A DNA stretch of 64,000 nt. It comes from Cytophagaceae bacterium (lineage in GTDB: Bacteria; Bacteroidota; Bacteroidia; Cytophagales; Flexibacteraceae). Shown piece after piece: positions 9,656 through 14,396 of the stretch. Every line of letters begins with the position of its first letter. Within the stretch, counting starts at the first letter, position 1. Made by a program: the position numbers and the translations under genes. The notes under the pieces are model-generated. The model searched no databases. It saw only the letters and a list, made by a program, of their open reading frames with translations, and was not told where the DNA came from. The DNA lies in NCBI GenBank assembly GCA_027490155.1, contig JAIXYP010000002.1, positions 62,001-126,000 on the forward strand, given 5' to 3'.

Positions 9656-10786
9656 GTGCAAGCCAAACCAATCCTATGCGTTGATGCCCGTATGCTCGAG
9701 TCCTCCGGGATCGGCATGATCATCAAAAACGTCATACCCCACATCCTGGATCGGTATCAATGGCACCTGTTGGTCAATCAAGACTCGTTTGAGCCCAATC
9801 AGTGGGCGCATGACCTACCCCACACGGTCGTCAACACACCAATATATTCCGTCAAGGAGCAGCTACTGCTAGGGGCCAAAATCCCAAAGTCGGCCGTCCT
9901 GACTTGGTTTCCTCACTATAACGTTCCTATTGCTATTGATGCTCGCTGTCGGTATGTTGTCAATATCAATGACTGTTTCCACAGAGCTTTTTACGACACA
10001 CTAACCTTGCCCCAAAAGCTCTATGCCCGTTGGGTGATGGCTGCTGCGGCCCACAAGGCACAACGCATCATTACGATATCGGACTTTAGTGAGCAACAGA
10101 TTAGATCCTATACTGGCGTGCAGGCCTCCAAAATCGATACCATCCTCCTTGCTGCGGATACTGCTCATTTCAGCCAAAGCTACAGGCAAGACCAGTTGGT
10201 GCAGATCAGGGCCAAATACTGTCTGCCAGATCAATACATCTTATTCGTAGGCAACCTGAAGCCACACAAAAACTTGGCTCGGCTGCTTCAGGCATTTGCT
10301 AGCCTAAAAGCCAAGGGCCAAACCAGTCAAACCAAGTTAGTCCTCTGTGGCAACTTCAAGGGCTTTATTACAGGTATGGACAACCTTGACAGCCTGATCA
10401 GCAACCTTGGTTTGGAAGATGACGTCGTCCTACCAGGCTTTGTGGATAACCAAGATTTGCCAGCTATCTATCAGATGGCCTTAGGCTTTGCCTTCCCGAG
10501 CTATTACGAAGGTTTTGGCCTGCCATTACTGGAAGCCATGGCGGCCCATGTGCCCGTCATCAGCAGCCATGCAGCTAGTCTGCCAGAAGTGGGTGGTGAT
10601 GCCGTTCGATATTTTGATCCCATGTCTTTACCTAGCATCGAGGAAGCGATTAAGACGTTGATTGCAGATGCTGAGCTCCGCAAATCATTAATGCAGAAGG
10701 GCTGGGAACGCCAAAACCAATTTAGTTGGCAAAAAGCAGCTGGGCAATTTGCCGCTGTTTTTGATCAAGTTATCCACCAGCATTAA
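9656..10786 (+). CDS. Glycosyltransferase, GT4 family
   Basis: The 376-residue protein has the two Rossmann domains of GT-B enzymes. The C-terminal domain shows FVGNLKPHKNLARLLQAF and the donor-binding FPSYYEGFGLPLLEAMAAHVPV, which holds the EX7E motif (E at GFGLPLLE). The GTG at 9656 is used because the conserved PILCVDARMLESSGIG starts at residue 4; the next ATG would remove half of it. It transfers a sugar from a nucleotide donor; the acceptor is unknown. It forms a co-oriented group with the next two genes. Confidence 0.85.
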   Translation: MQAKPILCVDARMLESSGIGMIIKNVIPHILDRYQWHLLVNQDSFEPNQWAHDLPHTVVNTPIYSVKEQLLLGAKIPKSAVLTWFPHYNVPIAIDARCRYVVNINDCFHRAFYDTLTLPQKLYARWVMAAAAHKAQRIITISDFSEQQIRSYTGVQASKIDTILLAADTAHFSQSYRQDQLVQIRAKYCLPDQYILFVGNLKPHKNLARLLQAFASLKAKGQTSQTKLVLCGNFKGFITGMDNLDSLISNLGLEDDVVLPGFVDNQDLPAIYQMALGFAFPSYYEGFGLPLLEAMAAHVPVISSHAASLPEVGGDAVRYFDPMSLPSIEEAIKTLIADAELRKSLMQKGWERQNQFSWQKAAGQFAAVFDQVIHQH

Positions 10787-10901: not shown

Positions 10902-12062
10902 ATGCCAGCGCCTGACCCGGATCGCAACATGATGCCCCAGACACCTGACGTGGCCACTGCCATCGTCCATGAGTGGTTTGTAAACTATGCAGGGTCAGAG
11001 CGGGTGGTTGAGCACATGCTCAAGACCACACCCGAGGCACAGCTGTTCTCTTTAGTAGATCATCTAACGGATAAAGAGCGTTGGTATTTGGGTGGACGTA
11101 AAGCGATCACAAGTCTCATCCAGCGGCTCCCGTTTAGCAAGTCCAAGTTTAGAGCTTATTTGCCTTGGTTCCCGATGGCCATCGAGGGGCTTGACCTAAG
11201 ACCCTACGACATAATCCTATCTAGCAGCCATGCAGTCGCTAAAGGTTTGCTTAAGGGTGCCCATCAGCTACATATTTGCTACTGCCACTCCCCCATGCGC
11301 TATGCTTGGGACCTATACCACCAATACTTAGAAGAGGCCAACCTCAGCCGGGGGATCAAGGGTTTCTTGGCTCAGCGGATGCTATCACAGCTCCGGATTT
11401 GGGACTATGCCAGTGCCCAGAGGGTCAATCATTTTGTTGCCAATTCCCACTACATAGCACGACGTATCAAGAATGTCTATGGCCGAGACGCTGACGTGAT
11501 TTATCCACCTGTCGAGATTGACAAGTTTGCCTTTGTCGCCAACAAGGAGGACTATTATTTTGTTGCCGCTCGGTTTGTACCCTACAAGAAGGTGGACCTA
11601 GTGGTGGCTGCCTTTGCCCAAATGCCTGACAAGAAGCTAATTGTAGCTGGCAACGGATCGGAGGCCAAAAAGATCAAGGCACTAGCCACCTCCAACATCA
11701 CAATCCTGGACCATGTCTCCGCCCCTGAGCTACAACGACTGATGGGTCATGCCAAAGCGTTTGTATTTGCCGCGGAAGAGGATTTTGGCATCACCTTGGC
11801 CGAAGCACAAGCTTGTGGCACCCCCGTGATTGCATTTGGCAAGGGAGGAGCAGCCGAAATTATTCTGGATCGTGAGACTGGCATCCTTTTTGGGCACCAA
11901 TCCGTGGATAGCCTCATGGAAGCCGTCCGAACGTTTGAGTCTTTGGCTGAATCCATCCAGCCTAGTACTTGTGCAGCTAATGCCCAACGGTTTAGCACCT
12001 CGCGTTTCCGACAAGAGTGGGCGACATTTGTACAAGAAAAGTGGCAAGCATTTAGCATCTGA
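10902..12062 (+). CDS. Glycosyltransferase, GT4 family (second)
   Basis: The 386-residue GT-B protein begins with TAIVHEWFVNYAGSERVVEHML, the acceptor-side motif of WcaI/WbnH-like GT4 enzymes. It has YCHSPMRYAWDLY in the N-terminal domain, FVAARFVPYKKVDLVV at the start of the donor domain and the EX7E region EEDFGITLAEAQACGTPVIA. It probably builds a surface or storage polysaccharide together with the preceding GT4. An internal ATG at 10929 is an alternative start that removes nine residues. Confidence 0.85.
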   Translation: MPAPDPDRNMMPQTPDVATAIVHEWFVNYAGSERVVEHMLKTTPEAQLFSLVDHLTDKERWYLGGRKAITSLIQRLPFSKSKFRAYLPWFPMAIEGLDLRPYDIILSSSHAVAKGLLKGAHQLHICYCHSPMRYAWDLYHQYLEEANLSRGIKGFLAQRMLSQLRIWDYASAQRVNHFVANSHYIARRIKNVYGRDADVIYPPVEIDKFAFVANKEDYYFVAARFVPYKKVDLVVAAFAQMPDKKLIVAGNGSEAKKIKALATSNITILDHVSAPELQRLMGHAKAFVFAAEEDFGITLAEAQACGTPVIAFGKGGAAEIILDRETGILFGHQSVDSLMEAVRTFESLAESIQPSTCAANAQRFSTSRFRQEWATFVQEKWQAFSI

Positions 12063-12240: not shown

Positions 12241-14181
12241 ATGATTTTCCCCTCTGAGTCCAAACAGTATTACACACCCGCCCCTCAATACCAAACAAAA
12301 GCCGCCTACTTCAGTATGGAGTTTGCGATCGACCAATGCCTCAAGATCTACTCTGGTGGTCTAGGTTATTTGGCTGGATCCCATATGCGGAGTGCCTTCG
12401 ACCTCAAACAAAACATGGTCGGAGTCGGCATCCTCTGGAAGTATGGCTATTATGACCAAGTCCGCAGTGCTGATAACAACATGGAGGTTCTGTATCAAGA
12501 AAAGAGCTATTCCTTTTTGGAGGATACTGGTCTACTGGTCCCGGTATATATCAACAAACACCAAGTCTATGTCAAGCCCTATATCCTGAAGCCTGACCAG
12601 TTTGGTACATGTCCGATGATCTTCTTGAGCACGGACATCCCCGAAAACGACTTCTTGGCCAGGACCATTACGCATAAGCTCTATGATGGCGACACTGCAG
12701 CACGCATCGCCCAGATGATTGTCCTCGGCATTGGTGGCGCAAAAGCCATCGAGGCCCTAGGTTCGGTGGCGGACATCTACCACATGAACGAAGCCCATGC
12801 CCTGCCGATGGCCTTCCACCTGCTAGGCAAGTACAAGGACAAAGAAGAGGTCAAGAAGCGTGTCGTGTTCACGACCCATACCCCTGAAAAGGCTGGCAAC
12901 GAGGAGCACAACATCTACTTGCTGGACAAGATGGGCTACTTCGGCAACCTCACACTGGACGAGGTTAGGATGATGACCGAGATTACTGATGACAGCTTTT
13001 CGCTTAGCCTAGGTGCGCTACGGCTTGCCAAGGTTGCGAATGGTGTTAGCCAGCTACATGGTGTCGTTAGTCGCGAAATGTGGGGCGACTTTCCGAATAT
13101 CTGTAACATCTATGCCATCACCAATGCCCAAAACCACAAATATTGGGCTGACCATGCTATGCAAGTGGCACTCTACACTGGTGAGGATGAGTCGCTTAAG
13201 TGGCGCAAGATGCACCTGCGTAAACGCTTGATCGACTTGGTAGCTGACCAAACTGGCAAGTATTTTGACAAAGATGCCATCATCATCGTTTGGGCACGCC
13301 GTTTTGCTGAGTACAAACGAGCCGACCTTATCAAGCGTGACATCGCCCGCTTCAATGCCTTGATCAGCCGCAGCAAACGCAAAGTCCAAATCATTTGGGC
13401 TGGCAAACCCTACCCTGGCGACCATAATGCCATCTCCGTGTTTAATCACCTCGTCCAGAGCAGCAAAGGCATCCCGAACCTAGCGGTGGTGACTGGCTAT
13501 GAGCTCAACCTAAGCGCATTGCTCAAAAAAGGTAGCGATGTCTGGCTCAATACGCCACGTCGCCCACGTGAAGCTAGTGGCACCAGTGGCATGACCGCTG
13601 CCATGAACGGTAGCATCAACTTCAGCATCGACGATGGTTGGATCCCTGAGTATGCACAACATGGTGTCAACTCCTTCGTGATGCCTGCAGCTGATCCGTT
13701 AAGCCCGATTGATGAGCAGGACAACTTTGACTGCAATAACCTATTTAACATCCTCGAGAACGAAATCCTACCGCTTTATTATGACCATCCCGAAAAATGG
13801 TTCAAGATGATGAAGCGCAACATGATCGATGTTGTCAAGGGGTTTGAGTCTGGCCGCATGGCGCATGAGTACTACGAGCTTTATGCTTACGGCAACGGCA
13901 CCAACAAGTTCGAAAAACCAGAGGCCTACTACCCCTACGAAGGTAAACCATATATCTCTGACGGCATCGGCTCCCTCCGAATGCACGGGCAAGCACCAAC
14001 CCCACCGGCGAGCAAAACTGGCGGAAAGAACACCACTGGCAAAGTAACAAAGAAGGAAAGCACCGGTACACCACGTTCCCAAGCCACACCTTCTGAGCGT
14101 TTGTTGCAAGCAGCTGGTGTACCGACTGCCGATGTGCCTGAAGGCTTTATTATCGCCCCTGCTAAGCGCCGGGAGGACTAG
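12241..14181 (+). CDS. Alpha-glucan phosphorylase-like protein (GT35) without the PLP lysine
   Basis: The 646-residue protein matches the short bacterial alpha-glucan phosphorylase type: AAYFSMEFAIDQCLKIYSGGLG at the N terminus, HMNEAHA, VFTTHTPEKAGNEEH, and WARRFAEYKRADL. The donor region reads DVWLNTPRRPREASGTSGMTAAMNG. In glycogen phosphorylases the residue after GNM or SGM is the lysine that binds pyridoxal phosphate; here it is threonine 452. Either this subfamily works without PLP or it is not a phosphorylase. The C-terminal 75 residues are basic and low in complexity (GGKNTTGKVTKKEST). It is the last gene of the glycosyltransferase group and is followed by a strong terminator. No branching enzyme or glycogen synthase is nearby. 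Confidence 0.8.
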   Translation: MIFPSESKQYYTPAPQYQTKAAYFSMEFAIDQCLKIYSGGLGYLAGSHMRSAFDLKQNMVGVGILWKYGYYDQVRSADNNMEVLYQEKSYSFLEDTGLLVPVYINKHQVYVKPYILKPDQFGTCPMIFLSTDIPENDFLARTITHKLYDGDTAARIAQMIVLGIGGAKAIEALGSVADIYHMNEAHALPMAFHLLGKYKDKEEVKKRVVFTTHTPEKAGNEEHNIYLLDKMGYFGNLTLDEVRMMTEITDDSFSLSLGALRLAKVANGVSQLHGVVSREMWGDFPNICNIYAITNAQNHKYWADHAMQVALYTGEDESLKWRKMHLRKRLIDLVADQTGKYFDKDAIIIVWARRFAEYKRADLIKRDIARFNALISRSKRKVQIIWAGKPYPGDHNAISVFNHLVQSSKGIPNLAVVTGYELNLSALLKKGSDVWLNTPRRPREASGTSGMTAAMNGSINFSIDDGWIPEYAQHGVNSFVMPAADPLSPIDEQDNFDCNNLFNILENEILPLYYDHPEKWFKMMKRNMIDVVKGFESGRMAHEYYELYAYGNGTNKFEKPEAYYPYEGKPYISDGIGSLRMHGQAPTPPASKTGGKNTTGKVTKKESTGTPRSQATPSERLLQAAGVPTADVPEGFIIAPAKRRED

Positions 14182-14211
14182 GTTATAGTCTTGTATTTAG
14201 AAGAATATACC

Positions 14212-14245
14212 AAGCAAGGGCCAACTCTGGCCCTTGCTTTTTTTG
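14212..14245 (+). terminator. Rho-independent terminator after the GT35 gene
   Basis: AAGCAAGGGCCA (14212-14223) pairs perfectly with TGGCCCTTGCTT (14228-14239) around a 4-nt loop, and seven or more T residues follow. It is a textbook terminator 30 bases after the stop codon. Confidence 0.9.
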
Positions 14246-14396
14246 GGGGCGCTTATCCCAACACAATCGCTTCCGCACAAATAGTTGTATTAGTCCACCT
14301 AAACCGCATTCGTAGCCAAATGCAACATTCTGTTACTTGGGTTACTAAACTAGAGCGCCTAGACTAAGACAAAGTTTGCCTTCCGACCCCCAACAA

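Follow-up and report, generated by a model that had tools for sequence, protein, structure and literature searches.

Does a GT35 protein that lacks the lysine for its cofactor still work in glycogen metabolism, and by what chemistry? The question is raised by a gene in the window, which is the whole stretch of 64,000 nucleotides of Cytophagaceae DNA analysed here. The cofactor, pyridoxal phosphate (PLP, vitamin B6), is considered essential to GT35, and according to passages of PMC4336185 this family uniquely requires it, a statement on which the PLP-independence of GT4 there rests. The window gene belongs to a whole conserved clade that lacks the lysine, with most active-site residues kept. 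Searches of open-access papers in PubMed Central turned up no description of a GT35 protein that lacks the PLP lysine.

The product belongs to GT35 by its profile matches to PF00343 (Pfam; E = 6e-14, 51.7 bits, cut-off 27) and TIGR02094 (NCBIfam; 432 bits, cut-off 191.7). Its AF2 model (pLDDT 84.9, pTM 0.83) has a confident core and a disordered tail, and is predicted to adopt the GT-B fold, with glycogen phosphorylases as the closest folds and 9l6i first among them. The active-site motif of the 646-residue ORF reads REASGTSGMTAAMNG, with the codon of E444 starting at 13570. Thr452 is aligned by phmmer with the lysine of Segatella copri glycogen phosphorylase (EASGTSGEKAEMNG; 9l6i and 20yr), and these two nearest solved relatives by sequence both carry lysine at the column. 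The Schiff-base lysine after EASGT..M, which marks PLP-dependent alpha-glucan phosphorylases, is thus absent from the window protein. A preliminary description of the locus had placed a threonine codon for the PLP lysine within 13561-13620, and this is borne out (Table 1). At its C-terminus the window protein is extended by about 85 residues, which most relatives do not have; the median length in the clade is 552 residues, and only 4 of 196 members have at least 600. In its own genome (3.99 Mb, 69 contigs) no second PF00343 match was found, and GT3 is present.

Table 1. Positions in the window of the GT35 gene, its motifs and its surroundings.
Feature	Position	Strand	Basis
GT35-derived protein with GT-B fold, 646 aa, of the Thr/Ser clade without the PLP lysine	12241..14181	+	ORF, profile matches, AF2 model
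Thr452 codon (ACC), in the column of the PLP lysine (E. coli MalP K646)	13594..13596	+	
EASGTSGMTAAMNG motif; E444-A-S-G-T as in phosphorylases, Lys replaced	13570..13611	+	
R354-F-A-E-Y-K359, R-x4-K phosphate-site motif common to phosphorylases	13300..13317	+	motif name from passages of PMC12018205
GGLG loop, residues 39-42, kept	12355..12366	+	
GYExxLS segment, residues 419-425	13495..13515	+	
C-terminal tail, residues 562-646, mostly low model confidence	13924..14178	+	
Hairpin of 12 bp with a T-run behind it, likely a terminator downstream of the GT35 gene	14212..14239	+	
Two GT4-like genes, which adjoin the GT35 gene here but do not accompany the clade elsewhere	9656-10786, 10902-12062	+	

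The preliminary description proposed aligning homologues at this column, and the alignment identifies the substitution as a conserved feature of the branch. The motif is readable in 239 distinct homologues (the 288-aa fragment L286, which lacks the motif, was left out), and 196 of these have a residue other than lysine: Thr in 165, Ser in 30 and Ala in 1, with Lys in the remaining 43. The motif was read directly in all 239 and in a set of 64 distinct proteins. The two kinds are separated by identity to the window protein, at least 48.5% for Thr/Ser rows and at most 40.5% for Lys rows, with nothing between. Thr452 is due neither to chance nor to a sequencing error, since 196 of 239 homologues are non-Lys there. 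Over 540 codons compared with a genome of the same genus (G007), the differences in the window gene are synonymous at 124 codons and non-synonymous at 5, and so the gene is, as judged from these differences, under purifying selection. These results, with the single clade described below, rule out a private mutation or decay; together with the AF2 model they agree with the earlier view of an intact gene whose product retains the fold. The one alanine is in L297:8726-10369 (EASGTSGMAASMNG), a protein 56.8% identical to that of the window.

A tree was built from 43 clade representatives, 42 Lys-types and E. coli MalP and GlgP (quick IQ-TREE analysis, SH-aLRT support only, no bootstrap). The non-Lys proteins are a single clade with full support (SH-aLRT 100) on a stem of 1.27 changes per column. 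This clade is nested among Lys-type short GT35s, with a Lys group of 541-574 aa as its sister (support 99). Because the non-Lys proteins form one clade within the Lys-types, the lysine was, on this topology, lost once, from a lysine-bearing ancestor. Members from Campylobacterota form one group (support 100) inside those from Bacteroidota, which points to horizontal transfer.

The clade is found in these two phyla. Named genomes among the best 80 loci include Pontibacter, Algoriphagus, Rufibacter, Sediminibacterium, Terrimonas, Epilithonimonas, Chryseobacterium and Saprospiraceae in Bacteroidota, and Sulfurovum, Sulfuricurvum and others in Campylobacterota; beyond these best 80 loci the clade could extend to further phyla. 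The family search gave a match in 9 of 11 genomes. Among the matches listed in the order search, 84 of 148 genomes are carriers (identity at least 49%), and PF00343 finds the same 84. Of these, 81 have no GT35 besides the clade protein; G056, G141 and G066 also have a Lys-type. In the phylum search 281 of 395 Bacteroidota genomes have a match among those listed; by identity (at least 51%) 42 of the genomes carry the Thr/Ser type, and no Lys-type match is among those listed for these 42. A GT35 match is present in 28 of 200 Campylobacterota genomes, with the Thr/Ser type only in 16, both types in 9 and the other type only in 3, including G590, where GT35 is in fragments. The clade protein is thus the sole GT35 in 16 of 25 Campylobacterota carriers and accompanied by a Lys-type in 9. 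A second PF00343 match, which may be of either type, was seen in 2 of 10 Campylobacterota genomes examined by profile.

Plasmid-borne copies occur in Pontibacter actiniarum and Runella rosea, both labelled glgP in RefSeq; such labels on clade genes are no evidence for PLP-dependent glycogen breakdown. At the plasmid loci L309 (Pontibacter), L312 (Pseudorhizobium) and L318 (Methylophaga), short GT35s of both kinds are found near a type II GAPDH gene, a DUF1622 gene or both, which hints at a shared mobile module. Weak GT35 matches (about 30% identity) are also seen in two unannotated 'bacteriophage' faecal contigs, MT836851.1 and MT835921.1; these contigs may be bacterial sequence deposited under a phage name.

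Apart from the lysine, the active site is largely retained. Nearly all 43 representatives have GGLG, N183-E184, H186, H213, N295, R353-R354, K359, K389 and E444-A-S-G-T, and 40 of the 43 have Y420. The window protein has the R-x4-K residues R354 and K359 and the glucose-site residues E444, H213 and N295, with roles by homology; we take the roles of these glucose- and phosphate-site residues to carry over from phosphorylases at the corresponding numbers. R353, Y420 and T448 stand where phosphorylases bind the phosphate of PLP. Besides 452, 14 columns differ between the clade and the Lys-types (47, 50, 71, 121, 296, 297, 350, 351, 390, 391, 401, 425, 471 and 479), a single residue making up at least 90% of each column in the clade while Lys-types mostly have a different one; for 121 and 296, the residue typical of the clade is already found in part of the sister group. 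Larger side chains appear in the clade at several of them (G350V, F351W, H391Y, G/A471F). Because this set of columns differs between the types, the alignment argues that the active site is remodelled, which is more than the loss of one lysine. G419, E421 and S425 are typical of the clade, and Lys-types read [ND]Y...[AG] at that segment. Lysine is invariant across the 43 representatives and rare among Lys-types at two columns only, 323 and 429, the latter near the end of a predicted helix (422-431) in the AF2 model, and Lys35 is present also in the nearest Lys-type group. This comparison of columns gave no clear candidate for a relocated PLP lysine. Covalent PLP at the usual site is very probably absent.

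The genomes that carry the clade are rich in glycogen genes. In the 148 genomes of the order, at least one of GT3, GlgB over the cut-off or full-length GlgA is present in 79 of 84 carriers vs 12 of 64 non-carriers (p = 2e-22; within-family Mantel-Haenszel odds ratio 10.5). For GT3 glycogen synthase, present in 77 genomes, the counts are 65 with both, 19 carrier only, 12 GT3 only and 52 with neither (p = 7e-13), and by genus 34, 11, 8 and 26 (p = 5e-6). As the genomes are related, these p-values overstate independence, and the co-occurrence is partly due to shared ancestry. GlgB exceeds the cut-off in 30 of the 148, of which 27 are carriers, and full-length GlgA is found in 3. The 5 carriers without any of the three markers over the cut-off have weaker GH13 matches resembling branching enzymes. 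In Campylobacterota, among the matches listed, full GlgA is found in 25 of 25 carriers, in 2 of 3 other GT35 genomes, and in 0 of 8 GT35-less genomes, the last being the first 8 of 172 rather than a random draw. Where the clade protein is the only GT35, synthesis is already covered by GT3 or GlgA in most genomes. A role for the clade in glycogen metabolism is likely in both phyla, and we hold this with good confidence. TIGR02095 (glgA) matches 147 of the 148 order genomes, nearly all best matches being of about 270-350 aa and covering the N-terminal half only (e.g. G000:C38:29382-30077); passages of PMC11046441 mention a conserved GlgA fragment in Bacteroidetes.

Gene neighbourhoods were compared using queries from Pfam-checked Campylobacterota proteins plus one Bacteroidota GH13. 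At least one glycogen or hexose-phosphate homologue is found at 28 of 30 Campylobacterota clade loci (none at L124 and L295), and a GlgA, GlgB, PGI or PGM homologue at 22. The neighbours include pgm, pgi and pfk, as would be expected if glucose 1-phosphate is made. In L297 the order is galT-like, glgA, ROK, glgA, glgB, pgi, clade GT35, pgm. In L289-L292 it is Lys-type GT35, pgm, pgi, clade GT35, NDP-sugar pyrophosphorylase/phosphomutase-like, GH57, GH57, so that the Lys-type and the Thr/Ser type stand in one gene run as a natural side-by-side comparison. A ROK kinase adjoins the clade gene in some operons, which would suit free glucose, not glucose 1-phosphate.

In Bacteroidota the clade gene stands alone. 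The same test finds an alpha-glucan gene at 4 of 127 loci (some genes being included twice, e.g. L033 and L092), all of the GH13 cyclomaltodextrinase type; distant homologues can be missed because the queries are mostly from Campylobacterota, and a phosphoglucomutase-like neighbour in L064 was seen in a scan of 123 loci and missed by the 127-locus test. Scans for a conserved neighbourhood in 58 loci (56 clade, 2 Lys-type; L081 left out) and in the 123 loci found only lineage-specific neighbours, such as an Nramp-like transporter at 32 of 123 (counted by eye), all in one group. From the position of the window gene after two GT4 enzymes, the preliminary description had suggested synthesis. This finds no support, given that the GT4 genes are not conserved with the clade and that the Campylobacterota neighbours are glycogen and hexose-phosphate genes. 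No homologues of the two GT4 genes (E<=1e-15) were found at the 127 Bacteroidota and 30 Campylobacterota clade loci; in the scan of 58 loci the first had one weak match (26%) and the second none. A joint operon with them is further ruled out by the 178-bp gap between the second GT4 gene and the GT35 gene and by the strong hairpin after the latter (z -3.4 for 14182-14260).

The clade is best read as short GT35s that descended from PLP-dependent alpha-glucan phosphorylases and, on present sequence comparisons, have stayed in use in glycogen metabolism after loss of the lysine. We tentatively suggest that they perform phosphorolysis without PLP, a reading that is plausible though far from secure. 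Glucosyl units would pass from the ends of alpha-1,4-glucan to phosphate and back (glycogen + Pi <-> glucose 1-phosphate). The substrate phosphate, held by R354 and K359, would serve as both nucleophile and proton donor, with no use of a PLP phosphate. The model for this is the mechanism proposed for the retaining trehalose phosphorylases of GT4, which, by the accounts in passages of PMC8950772, PMC4336185 and PMC12018205, show that PLP-free retaining phosphorolysis exists in a GT family. The reading is favoured because residues of the phosphate and glucose sites persist, GT3 or GlgA covers synthesis in most carriers, pgm, pgi and pfk accompany the clade gene where operons exist, and the clade protein is usually the sole GT35. 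Counting against it are 12 order genomes with GT3 and no GT35, the ROK kinases beside some clade genes, the 5 carriers with none of the three glycogen markers over the cut-off, the scarcity of alpha-glucan genes near the clade gene in Bacteroidota (4 of 127 loci), the share of the co-occurrence due to common ancestry, and the GT5-like GYExxLS segment with its small lean to the GlgA profile. In Campylobacterota the clade protein is no simple stand-in for a phosphorylase, as 9 of 25 carriers also have a Lys-type, in L289-L292 in an adjoining run.

The remodelled site could instead have returned to ordinary GT-B glucosyl transfer, with the nucleotide of ADP- or UDP-glucose in the PLP cavity, making the protein a second glycogen synthase or a converter of glycogen to NDP-glucose. 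The reverse step, in which a proto-GT35 took in PLP replacing nucleoside monophosphate, is proposed in a review (PMC11046441), and the clade GYExxLS resembles the GY.E..S of GT5 GlgA, unlike the corresponding Lys-type segment. At E<=1, TIGR02095 also matches 40 of 58 clade proteins (best 2.5e-15) vs 19 of 37 Lys-types (best 1e-10), although this lean is small, and in L289-L292 the clade gene has beside it a Lys-type GT35 as well as a protein resembling NDP-sugar pyrophosphorylases. Such a change is nevertheless unlikely: carriers mostly have a synthase already (GlgA in all 25 from Campylobacterota among the matches listed, GT3 in 65 of 84 in the order), and the larger side chains could fill, not free, a cavity. 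Structural likeness to E. coli GlgA (Z 31.1) was discarded as a sign of changed chemistry and is uninformative, because the model of a Lys-type sister is as close (Z 32.6). It is about equally doubtful that the clade is a non-catalytic, glucan-binding or regulatory paralogue, a pseudo-phosphorylase tuning glycogen metabolism. The lost cofactor lysine, the long stem branch and the coexisting Lys-types in Campylobacterota would fit this, but the glucose- and phosphate-site residues are nearly fixed, unlike those of a typical pseudoenzyme, and 81 of 84 order carriers have no other GT35. Less probable still is an enzyme that holds PLP non-covalently or on another lysine. R353, Y420 and T448 are kept, and Lys323 and Lys429 are fixed in the clade, but Thr, Ser and one Ala are tolerated at 452, and the 14 columns differ as a set, which suggests a remodelled rather than a kept pocket.

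The clade offers a natural test of what PLP contributes to glycogen phosphorylase and of whether PLP took the place of a nucleotide in this fold. Were the protein to use nucleotide sugars, the proposed exchange of nucleotide for PLP would have been reversed, giving an NDP-glucose-dependent GT35 in the glycogen pathway of two phyla.

Among known systems, Segatella copri glycogen phosphorylase (9l6i, 20yr) shares the predicted fold (VIA Z 34.3, rmsd 2.4 over 542 residues), the active-site motifs and the TIGR02094 match, and differs in its lysine (EASGTSGEK), its extra terminal regions and its length of 852 aa, at about 30% identity. The short Lys-types of the same phylum (L089/L237, L090/L230 and L202; 541-574 aa) are of the same length class and nearest in the tree (about 40% identity), but read EASGTSGMK and lack the clade-specific set of columns. 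E. coli MalP and GlgP have the GT-B fold and, by alignment, the glucose- and phosphate-site residues in common with the clade, but are of about 800 aa, and K646 of MalP binds PLP, as given in passages of PMC11046441. GT5 GlgA (2qzs, E. coli) has the GT-B fold in common with the clade model, as well as the GY...S segment, but uses ADP-glucose, and the window protein scores 32 bits against the TIGR02095 cut-off of 328.45. The fungal retaining trehalose phosphorylase of GT4 resembles the clade in its proposed PLP-free retaining phosphorolysis and its R-x4-K motif, as described in passages of the three GT4 papers cited above. It belongs to another family and acts on another substrate; the likeness is one of proposed mechanism, and no GT4 family is listed among the Pfam matches of the window protein. 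By descent the clade is thus GT35, yet it lacks the cofactor lysine that defines the PLP-dependent phosphorylases.
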